Source of the DNA: Bombella intestini
Lineage (GTDB): Bacteria > Pseudomonadota > Alphaproteobacteria > Acetobacterales > Acetobacteraceae
NCBI RefSeq assembly: GCF_002003665.1
Contig: NZ_JATM01000002.1
Location: 248,001-312,000 of the forward strand
Length of the DNA: 64,000 bases
Direction of reading: 5' to 3'
Numbering within the stretch: position 1 is the stretch's first letter; every line of letters begins with the position of its first letter. The position numbers and the translations under genes were made by a program. Below the pieces are notes generated by a model. The model ran no database searches and was not told the DNA's origin. It saw only the letters and a list, made by a program, of their open reading frames with translations. This document shows positions 12,333-61,194 of this stretch, piece after piece.

Positions 12333-15300
12333 ATGAATGCCATCGTCCTGACAGCCCTGCGGCGGCCTTATACGTTTGTTGTCATGTCCATCATGATCCT
12401 CATCTTCGGGGTGAGGGCCATTTTGGGAACACCAACGGATGTTTTCCCCAACATCAAGATTCCGACCGTTGCGGTTGTCTGGTCTTATACCGGGCTGATG
12501 CCGGAGGAAGTTTCAGGTCGTATTGTTTATTATTATGAGCGAACGCTAACAGCGACCGTAAATAATATCGAACATATCGAGAGTAGCTCCTATTACGGGC
12601 GAGGGATCGTCAAGGTTTTCTTCCAACCGGGCACAGATGTTAGCGTAGCGCAGACGCAGATTACTTCTGTATCGCAGACGGTCATCAAGCAGCTTCCCAC
12701 TGGGGCTACGCCGCCGCTTATTTTGGCACTGGATGCATCTTCTGTCCCGGTGCTGACCCTACAGGTCAATAACCCCAATATGTCCGCTTCGGAAGTCTAC
12801 AATATGGCTTCCAACCTTATCCGTCCTGAACTTGTTTCTGTGGCGGGGACGGCTATCCCCAACCCTTATGGGGGGGTAGCGGCGGATATTATGGTGGACA
12901 TCGACCCAGTGAAGCTGCTGGCCCATCGGCTTTCCGCTGTTGATGTGGCCAGTGCATTGAATAAGCAGAATATCGTTCTTCCGGCTGGAGACCAGAAGGT
13001 CGGGGCTATGGATTTCATGGTGCGGACTAACTCTGCACCTTTGGATATTGCAGCCTTTAACCGAATGCCCATCAAACAGGTGGGCAATTCCGTCATCTAT
13101 CTGAGGGATGTCGCTTGGGTGCATAAAGGCGGCCCGCCGCAGACCAATGCCGTGCTGGTGCGGGGCAAGCAGGCGGTGATGATCGTTATTCTGAAAAGCG
13201 GTAATGCCTCAACGCTGGATGTGGTGAGCGGGATCAAAAAGTTACTGCCTGACATTCAGAAGACACTGCCTCCCGGTACAAGCATGGATGTGCTGACGGA
13301 TGCTTCCAGTTTCGTGAAGGAATCCGTTGTTGATGTGGTGCGGGAAATGATTACCGCTGCCATTCTGACCAGCCTGACCGTTCTGCTTTTCCTGGGGTCA
13401 TGGCGTTCGACTGTGATTGTGGCCGTGTCTATTCCTCTAGCCATGCTCTCAGCCTTGATCGGCCTCAGTTTGGCAGGGCAGTCCATTAATGTGATGACGC
13501 TGGGCGGGTTGGCACTGGCTGTCGGTATTCTCGTGGATGATGCCACGGTGATGATTGAGAATATCGATGCTCATCTTCATATGGGCAAGGAGCTTGAGCC
13601 TGCCATTGTCGATGCCGCTAATCAGATTGTCATCCCGACATTTGTTTCGACAACATGTATCTGTATCGTTTGGTTCCCTCTCTTTGAGCTGACAGGCGTT
13701 GCGGGTTGGCTGTTCATGCCCATGGCCGAGGCTATCATTTTCGCAATGATCGCTTCTTTCATTCTTTCCAGAACGCTCGTGCCGACAATGGCGAACTGGC
13801 TGCTGGCGGCTCAGGTGGAAAAACAGCGACATCCAGATTATGCGAGCCGGAAGAAGGGCTTCTTCGGCAGGTTTCAGGAAAAATTTGAGTCTTATTTTGA
13901 ACAGTTCAGGCAAGGTTATCATGGTATCCTGCTGACTGCTCTGTCGATCAGAACAAAATTCATCGCTCTGTTCCTTTCCGGTGCGCTGGCGTCTCTCCTT
14001 CTTCTTTTCTTTGTTGGGCAGGATTTCTTCTCGGAGATTAAATCCGGGACTATGCAGATGCATTTTCGGGCACCGGTCGGCACCCGTATTGAAGAAAGTG
14101 CAAAATTAAGTGGTCTGATCGAGAAGAAAATTCGGGAGACTTTACCCGGTCAGGTGAAGTTGATCGTCAATAACTGCGGCCTGCCGATGAGTCAGATGAA
14201 TCAGGCAATGGTGCCTTCTCCCACAACGGGGGCGCAGGATTGCGATGTGACGATCCAGCTGGAGGATTCAGAGAGTCCAATCTCCGATTACCGGAAGCAA
14301 CTGCGCCGGTCTCTCGGGGCGGCTTTTCCGGGGATAGGTTTTACCTTCCAGCCGGGTGACCTTACCGCCAAGATTCTCAATTTCGGTCTACCTTCCCCTA
14401 TTGATGTGCAGATCGTTGGGCGTGACCTCCAACATAATTATGATTTTGCTGTTCATCTAGCGCAGCATCTTCGGCAGATCCCCGGTGCTGTGGATGTCAG
14501 CGTGCAGCAGCCGATGACACAGCCGACCATGCTCATCAATGCTCATCGTAGCTTCGCCATGGGTACGGGGATTACCGAAAAAGATATTGCCTTTAATGTC
14601 CTGACGACCCTTTCAGGGAGTTCGCAGGTTGGTCAGACGTACTATCTCAACCCGCAGGGCACATCTCAGTTGATTGATGTGCAGGCTCCTGCCACCTATC
14701 TCCAGACACTCAATGACCTTGAGAAAATGCCCATTGATAGAGGGGACGGGAACCCCCAGAATGGAACCATGCAGATTCTGGGAGGGGTCAGTCATATTGT
14801 GCAGACGGGCACTCCGGCGGAAGTCTCCCACTATAATATCATGCCGGTGTTCGACATTTATGTCGCTGCGGAAGGTGTAGACCTTGGGACCTTATCCCGG
14901 GCTGTTGGGCGAGAGGTAGAGAAAGTCCGCCCCAATCTGCCGCGTGGCTCCAGCATGGTGGTACGTGGCCAAGTCGTGACAATGAATAATGCCTATGTCC
15001 AGCTGATTGGTGGGCTGTTGCTCTCCATTGTGCTGGTCTATCTGATTATTGTCGTGAATTTTCAGTCATGGCTGGACCCATTCGTTATCATCATGGCTCT
15101 GCCAGCGGCTCTGGGTGGTATTTCGTGGAGCCTGTTCCTGACCCATACCACATTGTCCGTTCCAGCTCTGACAGGGGCTATTATGTGTATGGGGACGGCC
15201 ACCGCTAACGCCGTGCTTGTTGTGGCTTTCGCTCGGGAACGTCTGGAAGCGCACGGTAATGCCGTTCTTGCTGCTTCCGAAGCTGGGTTCGAGCGTATTC

Positions 15301-25419: not shown

Positions 25420-28400
25420 ATGAACGAACTCATGAAGATTCTCGGTCAGTCTGGTCAGTCAGGCACATTTGACCAGATTCGAATCCTGCTTGCTTCTAGC
25501 GAGCAGATTCGGTCATGGTCTTATGGCGAGATCAAAAAACCGGAAACGATCAACTATCGTACCTTCAAGCCGGAGCGTGACGGTCTCTTCTGTGCTCGGA
25601 TCTTTGGTCCGACCAAGGACTATGAGTGCCTCTGCGGTAAGTACAAGCGGATGAAATTCCGTGGGATCGTTTGTGAGAAGTGCGGTGTCGAGGTGACGCT
25701 GGCCAAGGTCCGCCGTGAACGGATGGGGCACATCGATCTCGCTTCACCGGTCGCCCATATCTGGTTCCTGAAGTCCCTGCCGAGCCGTATCGCCACGATG
25801 CTGGACCTGCCGCTCAAGGATGTTGAGCCGGTTCTGTATTTTGAGAAGTTCTTGGTGCTCGACAAGGGCGTCTGTGAATCTGATCAGGTCGAGTCTTACA
25901 AGCACGGCAAGCGTCGTGACCAATATCTGCTGGATGAAATCCGTTGCGAAGAGCTGATGGATGAATTCGCTGATGATGGTCTGGATGTCGGCATTGGTGC
26001 CGAGGTGATCAAGCGTGCGCTGTCCAGCTATGACTGGGGTCTGCCGAACGCACAGGAAGCCGAGCTGAGCCGTGCCGCTCGTGAGCGTGGTGAGCCGGAT
26101 CCGTTTGATTATGACGCCGAGGTGATGGAAGGCGATTCGGAAAAGACGATCATGCGCAAGAAATTGCGCAAGGCGACATCCGAAGCGGCCCGCAAGAAGC
26201 TGGTCAAGCGTCTCAAGATGGTCGAGTCCTTCGTGGAAAGTGGTGCTCGTCCGGAATGGATGATCATGGACATCGTGCCCGTGATCCCGCCGGAACTGCG
26301 TCCGCTTGTGCCGCTGGATGGTGGGCGTTTCGCTACATCCGACCTGAACGACCTGTATCGCCGTGTTATCAACCGTAACAACCGTCTGAAGCGGCTGATT
26401 GAACTGCGTGCGCCGGACATTATTGTCCGTAACGAAAAGCGTATGTTGCAGGAAGCTGTTGATGCGCTGTTCGACAATGGTCGTCGTGGTCGTGCTATCA
26501 CTGGTGCCAATAAACGTCCGCTGAAATCCCTTTCCGATATGCTGAAGGGGAAGCAGGGCCGCTTCCGTCAGAACTTGCTCGGTAAGCGTGTGGACTATTC
26601 TGGTCGTTCCGTGATTGTGGTGGGGCCGGAGCTGAAGCTGCATCAGTGTGGTCTTCCTAAGAAGATGGCTCTGGAGCTGTTCAAGCCGTTCATTTATTCC
26701 AAGCTGGAGAAGTACGGTCACGCTACGACCATCAAGGCCGCAAAGCGGATGGTTGAGAAAGAGCGTCCGGAAGTTTGGGATATCCTCGAAGAGGTTATCC
26801 GTGAGCATCCGGTGATGCTGAACCGTGCGCCGACCCTGCACCGTCTGGGTATTCAGGCGTTTGAGCCGAGCCTCGTGGAAGGTAAGGCTATTCAGCTGCA
26901 TCCGTTGGTCTGTACCGCCTTTAATGCGGACTTTGACGGTGACCAGATGGCTGTGCATGTGCCGCTTTCGCTGGAGGCCCAGCTGGAAGCCCGTGTGCTG
27001 ATGATGTCCACTAACAACATCCTCAGCCCGGCTAATGGTAAGCCGATCATCGTGCCGTCTCAGGACATCGTGCTTGGTCTGTATTATCTGAGCCTTGAGG
27101 TGCCTGAATATCGCCTTACGCCGGATGAAGCTGAGATCAAGGATGGCAAGGTCATTAAGGCGGCTCCGCCTGCCTATGCGGCAGTTGCGGAAATTGAAGC
27201 AGCTCTGCTGTCCAATGCCCTGAAGCTGCACGATAAGATTCGTCTGCGTCTGGATGCTCAGGATGAGGACGGTAAGCCGGTTCGTCAGACAATTCTGACA
27301 ACACCGGGCCGTGCCCTGATCGCCCAGATTCTGCCGAAGCATCCAGCTGTTCCGTTCAGCCTGATTAACCGTCAGCTGACAAAGAAGCTGGTGTCCGATG
27401 TGATTGATACTGTGTATCGTCATTGTGGGCAGAAAGAGGCGGTTATCTTCTGTGATCGTCTCATGGCTCTCGGTTTCCGTCACGCCGCTAAGGCTGGTAT
27501 TTCCTTCGGTAAGGACGATATGATCGTTCCGGCCGAAAAGACCACTCTTGTGAACAAGACCACGGAAGAGGTTAAAGAGTTTGAGCAGCAGTATCAGGAA
27601 GGTCTGATCACCGCTGGCGAGCGCTATAACAAGGTGGTGGATGCTTGGTCCCGTTGTACGGATGAAGTGCAGGCGGCCATGCTTAAGGAGATTTCCAAGC
27701 AGGTACCGGGTAAGCCGACCAACTCTGTTTGGATGATGAGCCACTCCGGGGCCCGTGGGTCACCGGCTCAGATGAAGCAGCTGGCCGGTATGCGTGGCCT
27801 GATGGTGAAGCCATCTGGTGAGATTATCGAGCAGCCGATTGTGGCCAACTTTAAAGAAGGTCTGTCGGTTCTTGATTACTTCACATCCAGCCATGGTGCC
27901 CGTAAGGGGCTTGCCGATACGGCGCTGAAGACGGCTAACTCCGGTTACCTGACACGCCGTTTGGTGGATGTGGCGCAGGATTGCATCATCACCGAAACGG
28001 ATTGCGGCAGCGAGCGTGGTCTGGTTGTCCGGGCAGTGACGGATAGTGGTGAGGTCGTGGCCTCCCTTGCAGAACGTGCTCTGGGGCGTACCCTGTCTCA
28101 GGATGCTTTCCATCCGATGACAGGTGAGAAACTGCTTCCCCGGAATCGCCTTCTGGACGAGGCTGATGTCGAACTGCTCGAAGGGGCAGGGATCGAAGCG
28201 GTTGAGATCCGCTCCGTTCTGACCTGTGACAGCAAGGCCGGCATCTGCGCCCATTGCTATGGCCGTGATCTGGCGCGTGGTACGCCGGTGAATATCGGTG
28301 AGGCTGTAGGCGTTATCGCTGCTCAGTCCATTGGTGAGCCGGGTACACAGCTGACGATGCGTACCTTCCATATTGGTGGTGCGGCGACCCGTGGTGCTGA

Positions 28401-57032: not shown

Positions 57033-57254
57033 CAGAAGGTCTGGCGCATATTAAAGATGGTTGATTGGAATTGCACCAAAACATTCGGTAATCATAAAAA
57101 TACCTTTCTCCTTTCGGAGTGCTTGCCTCTCCCTCTTGAAGAAAACCCTTAAGGGTTACATATCTGCGGGGTGGTGCTTCGCCGTATGGTGCGCAGGGCA
57201 CCGCATGTGAAATGATGCATGGAAAATGCACGGCGCTGATTGGGAGCGATGGAT
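57033..57254. promoter_or_regulatory. Divergent control region mdtA / CsbD-like gene
   Basis: Shared upstream region of the divergent genes. It contains a perfect 14-bp palindrome AACCCTTAAGGGTT (57144-57157), a CTCC-TTTC-GGAG hairpin and a GGTGC/GCACC repeat. No confident -35/-10 pair was seen and no gene. Confidence 0.4.
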
Positions 57255-57542
57255 ATGGTGGATACAACATCTATGAAGGCCGAAGGGTTCGTGCAGGAAG
57301 CCAAGGGCCGGGTTAAGGATGCAGTGGGTGCAATCTCTGGCGATGCTGCTATGCAGGCAGGCGGCAAGATTGATCAGCTGGGCGGCCGTGCCAAGCATGA
57401 ATTTGCAGACCTTTACGATGCTAATGAGAGCCGCCTGGAAGCAGTGACAGCTTTCATTCAGGAGCGTCCCTTTGTTGCTCTGGGGATTGTTTCCCTCGTT
57501 GGGCTGGTGATTGGTCGCCTTATTTTCAGAAAGCGTGGCTAA
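57255..57542 (+). CDS. CsbD-like protein with C-terminal membrane anchor (DUF883-type)
   Basis: A 95-residue protein. The N-terminal half (EGFVQEAKGRVKDAVGAISG) looks like CsbD, a general stress protein, and the C-terminal half (AFIQERPFVALGIVSLVGLVIGRLIF-type, part) is a single glycine-spaced transmembrane helix with RKRG end, as in ElaB/YqjD. The ATG at 57255 has GGGAG eight bases upstream. Likely an inner-membrane stress protein with a cytosolic N-terminus. Role unknown. Next gene is 30 bases away. Confidence 0.8.
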   Translation: MVDTTSMKAEGFVQEAKGRVKDAVGAISGDAAMQAGGKIDQLGGRAKHEFADLYDANESRLEAVTAFIQERPFVALGIVSLVGLVIGRLIFRKRG

Positions 57543-57572
57543 ACCAAGAATAGAGGGAGCTGGAGAGGGTTC

Positions 57573-58283
57573 ATGCAGTGGTATTACGAACGTGATGGTC
57601 AGCAGGTTGGGCCGGTATCGCACAGCGAGATGGTACGGCTGATCGTTCATCGTCATATCCGTCCGCAGACCCTCGTATGGCATCCGGGGTTCGGAAATGA
57701 GTGGCGACCCGCTAGTAAGGCTGGATTAGTTTCGCCTTCCTCTGGTGTTCGGATACTCATTTCCACCGAGAAACAGCTCGCATCTGGTGAAGCTAAAAAG
57801 GAGGGGCATGTTTCCTCCATCTGGGCTTGGCTGATGCTAGTGCCCGGGCTGATTGACCTTCTACTATTGGTGGTTGGCCAGCAGACACATTGGGCCGTGA
57901 CACCGGGGCGACCCATAACGGGCCTCTGCATCTCTGCCATTTTGTTTCTAACTCTCGTGAAAGATCGGCAGACGCTAGCTCGTGCTGGGGTGAGGCCGCC
58001 ATCTTTCTGGTGGTGGCTGTTTCTACCGGGGTATTTTTGGTGCCGTAAAAAGGTGCTCCATCGGGGAGGTGGGTTATTTGCTGCCTATATTTTGCTGAAC
58101 CTTCTGCAAGCGGCCATTTTGCTTTCTAATCCTCCGCCGGGGTTCGATCTGTTCTTGAAGCAGAAACAGGTAGAGCAGCCTGCTGCCTCTGCGCCGCATA
58201 AAGTGCAGCCGGGTCAGGATGGGCACCACGATGCTGGAACAGACGAGACAGCCCCCTCTCAGGATGGGCAGGAACAGCTTTAA
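57573..58283 (+). CDS. GYF_2-domain membrane protein
   Basis: A 236-residue protein. The N-terminal GYF_2 (DUF4339) domain at residues 1-50 has the signature WYYERDGQQVGPVSHSEM and EWRPA. Three to four hydrophobic segments follow from about residue 90 (WAWLMLVPGLIDLLLLVV, LCISAILFLTL, WWLFLPGYFWC, AAYILLNLLQAAILL), then a Gln/Glu/Asp-rich tail of about 50 residues. GYF_2 proteins are thought to bind proline-rich partners. Function unknown. AGAGGG lies just upstream of the start. Confidence 0.82.
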   Translation: MQWYYERDGQQVGPVSHSEMVRLIVHRHIRPQTLVWHPGFGNEWRPASKAGLVSPSSGVRILISTEKQLASGEAKKEGHVSSIWAWLMLVPGLIDLLLLVVGQQTHWAVTPGRPITGLCISAILFLTLVKDRQTLARAGVRPPSFWWWLFLPGYFWCRKKVLHRGGGLFAAYILLNLLQAAILLSNPPPGFDLFLKQKQVEQPAASAPHKVQPGQDGHHDAGTDETAPSQDGQEQL

Positions 58284-58344
58284 TAGAGCGGTTTGATGAG
58301 TGTATGCCTATTTTTTAGGCAGTATCATTCCAAATTCTACTCTT

Positions 58345-58399
58345 GACTCATTTTATTTTAAAAAAGGTCTTTTCTTTCGACTCGGAGTGATTCAGAATC
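58345..58399. promoter_or_regulatory. Cluster of four GANTC methylation sites upstream of rnhB-ccrM
   Basis: GACTC (58345-58349), GACTC (58379-58383), GATTC (58389-58393) and GAATC (58395-58399). The last two form GATTC-A-GAATC, an 11-bp palindrome. GANTC is the target of CcrM, which is encoded in the operon that follows. In Caulobacter, GANTC methylation state controls ccrM transcription. The region is A+T-rich and likely holds the promoter. Confidence 0.6.
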
Positions 58400-58448
58400 G
58401 GCGCATTACAGATGATGTGCCGTGTGAGGCGAGCGGAAGAAGGACCCC

Positions 58449-59084
58449 ATGCCGGATTATAGCCTGGAAGAACAGTATGACGGGCTTGTGGCCGGTGTGG
58501 ACGAAGTCGGTCGTGGCCCTTTGGCTGGGCCTGTTGTGGCGGCTGCTGTTGTGTTCCGCACGCCGCCATCGCCCTTTCTGTCCGGCTTGTTGGATGATTC
58601 CAAGAAGCTGACAGCCCGCCGGCGTGAGAAGGCTTATGCGGCCCTGCTAGAGGACGATACGGTCTGTGCTGCTCTTGGTGCGGCTTCTGTCCCGGAGATC
58701 GACCGGCTGAATATCGGTCAGGCCTGCCATTTGGCTATGCAGCGTGCCATGTATCGTCTGGCTGAAGAGCTGGGGGAATGGCCGGTTGCTGCCCTGATTG
58801 ATGGTAACCGTGCTCCGAAGCTGCCTTGTACGGTGGAGACGGTTATCAAGGGGGATGGCAAGAGCCTCTCCATTGCTGCAGCCTCCATTCTGGCTAAGGT
58901 TGTACGGGATAGGCTCATGACCCGCCTTGCCACACGGCATGGTGATTACGGCTGGGAGCGAAACGCCGGATACGGCACGGCACATCATCTGACAGGATTA
59001 AAAGAAGAGGGTGTAACCCTCCACCACAGGCGCAGCTTTGCCCCTGTGAAGCAGATGATCGCAGCAAAGGTTCACGCAGCATGA
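58449..59084 (+). CDS. rnhB: Ribonuclease HII
   Basis: Endonuclease that cuts at ribonucleotides in DNA and RNA-DNA hybrids, 211 residues. The catalytic residues are Asp18 and Glu19 (DEVGRGPLAGPV), Asp118 (ALIDGN) and Asp136. LDDSKKLTARRRE and ASILAKVVRD are conserved. It overlaps ccrM by four bases (ATGA), so the two are coupled. The upstream region carries the GANTC cluster. Confidence 0.96.
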   Translation: MPDYSLEEQYDGLVAGVDEVGRGPLAGPVVAAAVVFRTPPSPFLSGLLDDSKKLTARRREKAYAALLEDDTVCAALGAASVPEIDRLNIGQACHLAMQRAMYRLAEELGEWPVAALIDGNRAPKLPCTVETVIKGDGKSLSIAAASILAKVVRDRLMTRLATRHGDYGWERNAGYGTAHHLTGLKEEGVTLHHRRSFAPVKQMIAAKVHAA

Positions 59085-60166
59085 AAGCGGATATGCCCCT
59101 GAACAGGATTTTACGTGGGGAATGTGTGGAGGTGATGAAGACCCTCCCAGATGCCAGTGTGAACTGTATTTTTGCCGATCCCCCTTATAATCTCCAGTTG
59201 AGGGGAGAATTGCGCCGCCCGGATGAGAGCGTGGTGGATGGCGTGGATGACGACTGGGATAAGTTCACGGGCTATGAGGCCTATGATGAATTCACCCGTG
59301 CATGGCTAGGTGAGGCACGACGCCTATTGCACAAGGATGGTACCATCTGGGTTATTGGTTCTTATCATAATATCTTTCGTCTTGGGGCGATCATGCAGGA
59401 TTTGGGCTTTTGGATCCTGAATGATATTATCTGGCGTAAGTCGAACCCAATGCCCAATTTCCGGGGACGTCGCTTTACAAATGCTCATGAAACGCTGATC
59501 TGGGCAGCTCGTGGCCCGGAGAGTAAGTATCGTTTTAATTATCAGGCGATGAAGGCCCTTAATGAGGACCTTCAGATGCGTTCGGATTGGTATCTACCTC
59601 TTTGCACGGGGAATGAGCGGCTGAAGAATGAGCATGGGCTGAAGCTGCACCCAACGCAGAAGCCGGAAAGCCTTCTGCACCGTACTCTGCTGGCCTCGAC
59701 CGTAGAGGATGATGTGGTGCTAGATCCGTTTTGTGGAACGGGTACCACGCCCGCCGTGGCCAAAAAGCTAGGGCGTCGTTATCTCGCTATTGAGCGTCAC
59801 CCGGATTACATCAAAGCAGCAGAAGCCCGTCTGGAGCGGGTGGAGGCTCTCCCGGCGGATCAGTTGGAGATCACTCCGGCCAAGAGGGAGATGCCCCGTA
59901 TTCCCTTCGGGTCATTCGTGGAGAATGGCAGTTTGCCTGCCGGTACGGTTGTGTACGATCGTCAACGGCGGTTGAAGGCCCGTGTCTCGCCAGATGGCAC
60001 GCTGGTTTCTGGCCAGCATCGGGGGTCTATCCATAAACTGGGGGCTCTGTTGACGAATGCGGCATCCTGCAACGGTTGGACATTCTGGTATTTTGAGCGG
60101 GACGGGCAGTTCTTACCCATTGATACCTTGCGGCAAGAGACGCACCTGTTGCGTAGGAGTGCCTGA
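59081..60166 (+). CDS. ccrM: Cell-cycle adenine DNA methyltransferase CcrM (GANTC)
   Basis: An orphan beta-class adenine methyltransferase of 361 residues that methylates GANTC. Catalytic motif IV is DPPYNLQL (Asp33-Tyr36 and on), the SAM-binding motif I is DPFCGTGTT (residues 215-223) in the permuted order, and the C-terminal RAMA domain (about 275-355, VSPDGTLVSGQHRGSIHKLGA, part) gives specificity. No restriction gene adjoins. Start at 59081 overlaps rnhB; an ATG at 59093 is an alternative. Usually essential or important for cell-cycle timing in alphaproteobacteria. Confidence 0.95.
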   Translation: MKADMPLNRILRGECVEVMKTLPDASVNCIFADPPYNLQLRGELRRPDESVVDGVDDDWDKFTGYEAYDEFTRAWLGEARRLLHKDGTIWVIGSYHNIFRLGAIMQDLGFWILNDIIWRKSNPMPNFRGRRFTNAHETLIWAARGPESKYRFNYQAMKALNEDLQMRSDWYLPLCTGNERLKNEHGLKLHPTQKPESLLHRTLLASTVEDDVVLDPFCGTGTTPAVAKKLGRRYLAIERHPDYIKAAEARLERVEALPADQLEITPAKREMPRIPFGSFVENGSLPAGTVVYDRQRRLKARVSPDGTLVSGQHRGSIHKLGALLTNAASCNGWTFWYFERDGQFLPIDTLRQETHLLRRSA

Positions 60167-60201
60167 AGTCGGGTACTTCAGGACATGAAGGAGGGTGGAG
60201 C

Positions 60202-60405
60202 GTGAATTTTTTTGAGACACATACAGGGCTGGTCATTGCTGTTATCGCACTGGTTTTTGCCATTCTGTTTCATATCGTCATCATGCGCCCGCAGAAGCGC
60301 TCTGCGTTTGTTAGTTTCTGTTGGGACCTGTTGGTGTTCCTCATCTGCCTCGCAGGTATTTCCATCATTTATTACAGCGCACTGCCCCTGATGGCGTCTT
60401 CCTGA
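60202..60405 (+). CDS. Small two-helix membrane protein, function unknown
   Basis: A 67-residue protein from a GTG start with a strong GGAGGGTGGAG ribosome site. Hydrophobic helices at about residues 8-28 (GLVIAVIALVFAILFHIVIM) and 40-60 (CWDLLVFLICLAGISIIYY), with a basic MRPQKR loop between. Thirty-five bases after ccrM and before a strong terminator, so it is probably the last gene of rnhB-ccrM. Family not recognised. Confidence 0.72.
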   Translation: MNFFETHTGLVIAVIALVFAILFHIVIMRPQKRSAFVSFCWDLLVFLICLAGISIIYYSALPLMASS

Positions 60406-60423
60406 CTAGGCCGTAGAGATCAT

Positions 60424-60466
60424 AAAAAAAAGCCCTTCTCCGGGTTCTCCCGGGAAGGGCTTTTTT
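60424..60466. terminator. Bidirectional terminator
   Basis: A run of A leads into a 14-bp stem (60430-60444 with 60449-60462, one bulge), TTCT loop and six T ending at 60466. It ends both the plus-strand ccrM operon and the minus-strand ankyrin gene. Confidence 0.85.
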
Positions 60467-60492
60467 GTGGGCTTCAGGAACGAAGCGGTCGC

Positions 60493-61194
60493 TTACTGCG
60501 GCGTTGCCGTATGGGCGGGCGCATTGTGGTGAGTTGTATGATGTGCAACCGGACGGACACCATGTTGCGGTGCATGGGTCACGGCCTTCCGAGCTGGAGG
60601 AGCGGATGGCCCATTAAAGCCTAGGAAGCCGACTGATGGGAGTGGCTGCCCCGGATTTTCCACAACAGGCGCCGGAGCTTTAGCAGCGAGGCTGGCTTGA
60701 CCGTTGATGGAAATATGGGTGTCGGTTTCATCATGTGTAGTGCTGGTGATGAGCTTGCCGTCTGGGTTGTAGGTCCGCAGGGAGAGAAGCTGGAACATGA
60801 TGTCATTGCGACCGAGGTCGATGGCGAGGTCCAGCGGGGTCTGCTCCAGTACGTTACGGGCATTGATGTCCGCACCACGGCTCAGGGCCTCTTTTGCACC
60901 AAGGAGGGAGCCACGATTGATGGCATCAAAGAGGGCAGCCGTTGGATTGATGTCCACTCGAGCGTGGCTGTTGTCGCCATCATCGGCGTCAGCACCCGGC
61001 AGAGCTGAAGGCGGAGCAGAGCGGCGTGCCTCCTTGCGGGCGTCAGCCTGTTTCTGGGCATCCATAGCTTCCTGTTCGGCTTCAGCTTCATCAGCGGACT
61101 GTGCATGAGCACGGTGTGGCATAACCACAACCGAAGCAGCCGAAAGACCGATGGCGAAAGCGAGACGGGGCAGGAATGAACTCAATGGGCGCAT
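60493..61194 (-). CDS. Secreted ankyrin-repeat protein
   Basis: A 233-residue protein with a signal peptide ending at RAHA (residue 31). A charged Glu/Ala/Lys region (33-60) precedes two ankyrin-like repeats (about 85-145): TAALFDAINRGSLLGAKEAL and NVLEQTPLDLAIDLGRNDIM. The C-terminal 80 residues are Pro/His-rich low complexity, with repeated HH pairs that could bind metals. Likely periplasmic. No enzymatic domain. A 123-bp gap separates it from the vWA gene upstream. Confidence 0.75.
   Translation of the reverse strand: MRPLSSFLPRLAFAIGLSAASVVVMPHRAHAQSADEAEAEQEAMDAQKQADARKEARRSAPPSALPGADADDGDNSHARVDINPTAALFDAINRGSLLGAKEALSRGADINARNVLEQTPLDLAIDLGRNDIMFQLLSLRTYNPDGKLITSTTHDETDTHISINGQASLAAKAPAPVVENPGQPLPSVGFLGFNGPSAPPARKAVTHAPQHGVRPVAHHTTHHNAPAHTATPQ

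Follow-up and report, generated by a model that had tools for sequence, protein, structure and literature searches.

The closest described counterpart of the locus reported here is the ccrM promoter of Caulobacter crescentus, which, like that of Bombella, has sites for the GANTC methyltransferase CcrM near the promoter of the enzyme's own gene. In excerpts of the published accounts, this promoter carries two GANTC sites and its expression is tied to hemimethylation (PMC10073500, PMC2217572), a precedent that the initial annotation of the present locus had rightly invoked; part of a further paper states that methylation most probably affects ccrM transcription in Caulobacter (PMC3973325). A second group of described promoters comprises the GcrA/sigma-70 promoters of Caulobacter (mipZ, podJ, tipF and ctrA P1), with GANTC in or beside the -35/-10 elements (excerpts of PMC4287350 and PMC3667746), and one of these excerpts has GcrA acting, within the -35/-10 region, on GANTC that is methylated (PMC3667746). 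A previous survey, which took promoters as 500 bp, concluded that control cannot be demonstrated from the number of GANTC sites (PMC2877005). Caulobacter is the only organism for which the portions of the open-access literature covered describe such self-control of ccrM through methylation; no open-access paper on ccrM in acetic acid bacteria was found, the combination of GANTC and Gluconobacter matched only a Phenylobacterium genome paper, and a search on ccrM, rnhB and operon gave no paper with both ccrM and rnhB among the matches listed. In gammaproteobacteria, clusters of GATC at promoters controlled by Dam and SeqA provide a further example of dense methylase sites that become hemimethylated on replication.

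The window, the whole stretch of 64,000 nt that was analysed (C8:248001-312000), belongs to the 2.0-Mb genome (G000) of an acetic acid bacterium of the genus Bombella; of the relatives listed, Bombella favorum and strain B3987 are the nearest, with CcrM 99% identical. Its relevant features are as follows.

58345-58349: GANTC site 1, GACTC, within TTGACTC
58379-58383: GANTC site 2, GACTC (GAGTC in locus L006), which would occupy the -35/-10 spacer
58389-58393: GANTC site 3, GATTC, whose final C would open the -10 hexamer, matching the class-wide ccrM promoter model described below
58395-58399: GANTC site 4, GAATC, overlapping the putative -10 and missing in three of 11 genus genomes (L008, L009 and L010)
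58449 to 59084, forward strand: rnhB, RNase HII (NF000595, 223.8 bits, cut-off 167)
59081 to 60166, forward strand: ccrM, homologue of GANTC adenine methyltransferases, its start overlapping the rnhB stop

As first noted in the initial annotation, four GANTC sites lie within 55 bp upstream of rnhB-ccrM (starting at 58345, 58379, 58389 and 58395), and two of them, sites 3 and 4, together form the dyad GATTC-A-GAATC (58389-58399); 49 bp separate the end of the cluster from the start of rnhB. The claim that the operon downstream encodes CcrM is likewise borne out: the protein is a homologue of the solved Caulobacter enzyme over both domains (6pbd_A, E 5.3e-141, residues 9-353 on 15-360), and the RNase HII gene rnhB precedes it. 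The best family for the protein is the NCBIfam equivalog NF050803, by its name a model of Caulobacter-type CcrM, against which it scores 611.6 bits, under the cut-off of 830. The rnhB stop codon (59082-59084) overlaps the ccrM ATG at 59081, so that promoter control would affect both genes. No Rfam element was found in 57200-60500 at the gathering threshold, and the Bombella leader RNA folds weakly, with a z of -1.2 for the window and of -0.5, -0.6 and -2.0 for three relatives. Separately, strong structure was seen on folding the leaders of six of seven Acetobacter (L052, L053, L054, L069, L072 and L088) and both Komagataeibacter loci (L076 and L082), with z of -3 to -7 against shuffles, at most 72 bp before rnhB; these hairpins have a GANTC in each arm (for example, GACTC..GAGTC or GAATC..GATTC) and may be either RNA hairpins or DNA dyads.

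The comparison with Caulobacter ccrM also brings out differences. That promoter combines two sites with activation by CtrA, whereas the Bombella locus has four sites, and no full CtrA box (TTAA-N6/7-TTAA) was found in the 250 bp before rnhB, either in the window or in the relatives scanned; half-sites and degenerate boxes lay outside this scoring, and CtrA control through a full TTAA box was rejected for want of one in the scanned loci. Unlike the Caulobacter sites, the Bombella array stands before rnhB. The best CtrA-like protein of the genome (C7:221341-221943) is 49% identical to the Caulobacter-type query, as against 79-84% in four other members of the class. Relative to the Dam/SeqA clusters, site density at the promoter is similar, whereas methylase and motif differ. 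With the GcrA/sigma-70 promoters, the Bombella region, a candidate GcrA-dependent promoter in a genome that encodes GcrA, would share GANTC in or beside the -35/-10 elements; its number of sites exceeds that of most, since among the 96 cell-cycle-regulated starts of Caulobacter that have a GANTC upstream, 11 have more than one (excerpt of PMC4287350).

The cluster had been judged against an expectation of one GANTC per 256 bp. That it is rare holds; the figure itself understates how scarce the motif is here, with 731 sites, or about 1 per 500 bp, in 364 kb of the contig (the window plus 15 stretches of 20 kb) and, within the window, 127 observed against 274.5 expected from shuffles. Four GANTC in 55 bp and three in 21 bp each occur once in the 364 kb, in both cases at the rnhB-ccrM cluster. 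When 731 sites were placed uniformly in 364 kb, the mean number of four-in-55 clusters was 0.117, and at least one appeared in 10% of trials. By itself, the cluster is mildly to moderately unusual, and it is the position before ccrM and the conservation that carry weight. The remaining clusters of four GANTC within 100 bp of sequence in the 364 kb (25437-25510 and 14189-14277 in the window, and L147:11247-11325) all fall inside long reading frames; that at 25437-25510, with four GANTC in 74 bp, lies at the 5' end of a frame whose protein resembles RpoC.

Absence from relatives had been named in advance as evidence that would refute the proposed feedback, and on this point the sites hold up. 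Within the genus, sites 1-3 are kept in 11 of 11 genomes, TTGACTCATT at site 1 being unvaried in all of them, and site 4 in eight of 11. Across 125 bp, all genomes agree at 14 of the 16 columns with fixed GANTC letters and at 48 of the remaining 105 (p 0.002), and the same contrast confined to the block gives p 0.076; genus-level conservation is thus modest and alone would not settle selection on GANTC. Among acetic acid bacteria at large, 3-7 GANTC sites (mean 4.37) occur in the 150 bp before rnhB in all 46 loci counted, which belong to Bombella, Gluconobacter, Asaia, Swaminathania, Brytella, Acetobacter, Gluconacetobacter and Komagataeibacter, together with L012, L014, L035 and L064. In control 150-bp windows from 44 of these loci, at least three GANTC occurred in five of 24,614 and four in none, and in 44 of 44 loci no control window matched the count before rnhB; most control windows are coding, so that an intergenic excess of GANTC is only partly controlled. 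Assignment of the 44 loci to the acetic acid bacteria followed genus names and was made with the counts already known, L035 and L064 being placed with Bombella, and 14 of the set of 80 loci, in which there was no rnhB hit, were excluded from the upstream counts and the control-window test. Commensalibacter is usually placed with the acetic acid bacteria; its locus L065, with one site, was counted in the non-acetic-acid group.

These counts bear on the simplest alternative, that the cluster reflects chance and a general excess of GANTC between genes. Such an excess is reported for Alphaproteobacteria (part of PMC3973325), and the uniform placements yield a cluster of this kind in one 364-kb sample in ten; however, with arrays in 46 of 46 loci from eight named genera, and four sites in none of the 24,614 mostly coding control windows, we consider this explanation very improbable.

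The arrays vary in detail between genera. A GANTC-N4/5-GATTC arrangement is shared by Bombella, Gluconobacter, Asaia, Swaminathania and Brytella, its N bases and spacers varying. At the same slot, G, A, T and C are constant and the N base differs, with GACTC or GAGTC for Bombella, GAGTC for Gluconobacter, GAATC for Brytella and GATTC for Asaia; in Acetobacter, Gluconacetobacter and Komagataeibacter, the layouts differ. N bases, spacers and individual sites turn over across genera, and the array persists. A constant GANTC with changing letters and layout is as would be expected from selection for recognition by CcrM, not for one fixed operator. This pattern also weighs on the proposal that the sites are operators of another protein favouring GANTC-like dyads, with methylation by CcrM incidental or the sites shielded, as with MucR. 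Shielding of GANTC from CcrM by MucR is described in Caulobacter and Sinorhizobium, and CtrA is able to shield GANTC on a synthetic promoter (both from an excerpt of PMC5172544); sites 3 and 4 do form a dyad. Yet across genera GANTC stays, with different N bases and spacers and no constant dyad, and the site-4 arm of the dyad is gone in three of 11 genus genomes, so that we regard operators of this kind as unlikely. A common helical phasing was also considered and rejected: an interval of 10-11 bp between adjacent sites is the commonest for several genera and among arrays of the class, but Acetobacter mostly has 16-18 bp.

In an RnhB and CcrM tree (28 of 66 loci), the arrays fall on the side of the acetic acid bacteria, and the Commensalibacter metagenome-assembled genome forms a long branch in which the array is absent. 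In this genome (L065) and the similar genome L150, rnhB lies 11-14 bp from ccrM, with one GANTC before rnhB and none before ccrM; the single site is perhaps the result of array loss.

The class as a whole was surveyed at 76 alphaproteobacterial loci, made up of 74 of 85 matching genomes (the window's own excepted) plus three family loci, less L173 with its short upstream region; 11 matching genomes were left out and 29 of 115 genomes had no match. TTGAC-N1-5-GANTC (searched with spacers of N0-6) occurs within 200 bp before ccrM in 45 of the 76 and is absent in 31, against a single occurrence when 361,318 strand-bases from these loci, taken away from the ccrM upstream region, served as background; at least three GANTC lie in the 200 bp before ccrM in 44 of 76. 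In 22 of the 42 module loci outside the family, the start of a GANTC lies exactly 19 bases downstream of the T that opens TTGAC, and A, three free bases and T follow. The resulting module, TTGAC(G)-N17-CAnnnT, places one GANTC directly against the -10 and a second within the spacer in these 22 loci, and is read here as CcrM sites inside the predicted ccrM core promoter in more than half of the loci surveyed in the class. Among the 45 module loci, 18 have a TTGAC that starts 35-38 bp before the assigned ccrM start, which suggests that the ccrM messages of these loci would be leaderless; the start codons were assigned automatically.

A first survey, confined to the region upstream of the operon's first gene, gave a mean of 0.44 GANTC and no TTGAC-GANTC in 57 tight rnhB-ccrM operons, as against 2.68 and 11 of 19 in the 19 others. 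The view of these 57 operons as free of the module was discarded, since 34 of them carry it within 200 bp before ccrM.

Where the sites stand, before rnhB or before ccrM, was compared within the family at 24 loci, one per genus, with rnhB readable in 21. Five loci with overlapping rnhB and ccrM have 3-4 GANTC before rnhB and 0-1 before ccrM, and at least three before rnhB are found in exactly these five of the 21 readable loci. In seven family loci, whose CcrM is 62-67% identical, TTGAC-GANTC stands before ccrM; the six of these with a readable rnhB show 0-1 GANTC before that gene. L023 and L026, whose CcrM is also 62-67% identical, are without TTGAC-GANTC before ccrM, and the remaining family loci have neither arrangement. 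Of 44 acetic-acid-bacteria loci, 24 have an assigned rnhB-ccrM gap of -4 or -1 and the other 20 one of 8-26 bp, and the 200 bp before ccrM hold 0-1 GANTC. In 34 non-acetic-acid relatives (L084 and L099 having been dropped as short), the mean before ccrM is 0.56 and TTGAC-GANTC occurs in none. By position, GANTC sites tend to go with the promoter that would be able to drive ccrM. The promoter may have moved within the family; relocation fits the data, and so does loss followed by regain. A nearby rnhB does not force the array upstream, because in L178 and L131 the module lies before ccrM despite assigned rnhB-ccrM gaps of -43 and 32 bp, and in L065, L071, L094 and L150 (gaps of 11-14 bp) there is one site or none before either gene.

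To place the Bombella cluster in relation to this module, a 33-bp ccrM core-promoter model, trained on the 22 modules outside the family, was scanned over both strands of the 364 kb, with the following candidate elements.

58370 to 58402, forward strand: best forward match to the core-promoter model (score 5.2)
58370-58375, forward strand: degenerate -35, TTTTCT, N17 before the -10
58393-58398, forward strand: putative -10, CAGAAT, for which the transcription start would be at about 58405
58343 to 58348, forward strand: alternative -35, TTGACT, for which the start would be at about 58378, with sites 2-4 in the leader

Position 58370 ranks 49 of 726,976 and is the top forward position in 58300-58448. 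Two features of the module are present, GACTC (58379) in the spacer and GATTC (58389) directly 5' of a CAnnnT -10; the third, TTGAC at the -35, is not, TTTTCT standing at 58370 and TTGAC 27 bp farther upstream at 58343. Of 44 acetic-acid-bacteria loci, 38 have a hexamer of the TTGAC or TTGC type at a distance of 101-117 bp upstream of rnhB. The model fit is partly circular because much of the score derives from the GANTC letters. Within their own loci, the model ranks are 1-5 in Bombella (seven loci) and 1-2 in Asaia and Swaminathania (three loci); those in Gluconobacter and Brytella (11-62) are no better than in non-acetic-acid loci (10-192), and Acetobacter, Komagataeibacter and Gluconacetobacter are not outstanding; one rank-1 match, in L066, contains no GANTC. 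A sigma-70 scan of 58270-58470 found no forward promoter.

GcrA is encoded in the genome (Pfam PF07750, above cut-off), and solved GcrA (7ye1_G, E 8e-23) can be aligned with both its DNA-binding end and its sigma-interacting end. The Ala/Pro/Lys-rich linker between these ends (protein at L139:17133-17825) has about 135 residues, compared with 62 in Caulobacter.

Taken together, we consider it likely that selection maintains the four GANTC sites as an element of ccrM operon control that is linked to methylation. We interpret the array as a core promoter of rnhB-ccrM that would sense methylation, with GcrA as its probable reader. CcrM would methylate the array before rnhB, and RNA polymerase with the sigma-70 cofactor GcrA would engage the hemimethylated and the fully methylated promoter differently. 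In the likeliest cycle, passage of the replication fork would render the array hemimethylated and switch rnhB-ccrM transcription on, whereupon newly made CcrM would methylate it fully and output would drop. This order, on when hemimethylated and off when fully methylated, is the one stated for Caulobacter ccrM (excerpt of PMC2217572); whether full methylation lowers rnhB-ccrM output is for us an evenly balanced judgement.

The same methylation-sensing element could act with the opposite sign, in a GcrA-driven positive loop in which methylated sites would recruit GcrA and sigma-70 and raise rnhB-ccrM transcription, and replication would dilute the signal; the claim of a selected, methylation-linked element is common to both. 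A genome-encoded GcrA and the location of GANTC between -35 and -10 in the class model are in keeping with such a loop. Against it, the Caulobacter ccrM promoter is stated to be active when hemimethylated (excerpts of PMC10073500 and PMC2217572), and GcrA binding here is predicted from a protein that scores 94.7 against an NCBIfam equivalog cut-off of 280. We view the positive loop as a tentative possibility.

Direct autorepression is a further alternative: CcrM itself would occupy un- or hemimethylated promoter sites and block RNA polymerase until these are methylated. Dense sites overlapping a putative promoter would suit this, and restriction-modification methylases can repress their own promoters. 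CcrM is also reportedly termed processive in the title of one paper. Long occupancy is, however, at odds with the statement that CcrM leaves the DNA after methylating one site (part of PMC10073500), and autorepression appears improbable.

For the class, we lean slightly towards a general reading. CcrM sites would be built into the ccrM core promoter across much of the Alphaproteobacteria (TTGACG, a GANTC in the spacer, a GANTC whose last base opens the CAnnnT -10, and 17-nt spacing), the methylase reading its own product where polymerase opens the DNA; in acetic acid bacteria, in which ccrM abuts or overlaps rnhB, the sensor would stand before rnhB and be elaborated to 3-7 sites. A recurring module with CcrM sites at the -10 would make self-control of ccrM testable across many species, including tractable acetic acid bacteria whose scanned ccrM operons showed no canonical CtrA box, and the position of the array before rnhB would tie RNase HII to the methylation cycle in this group.
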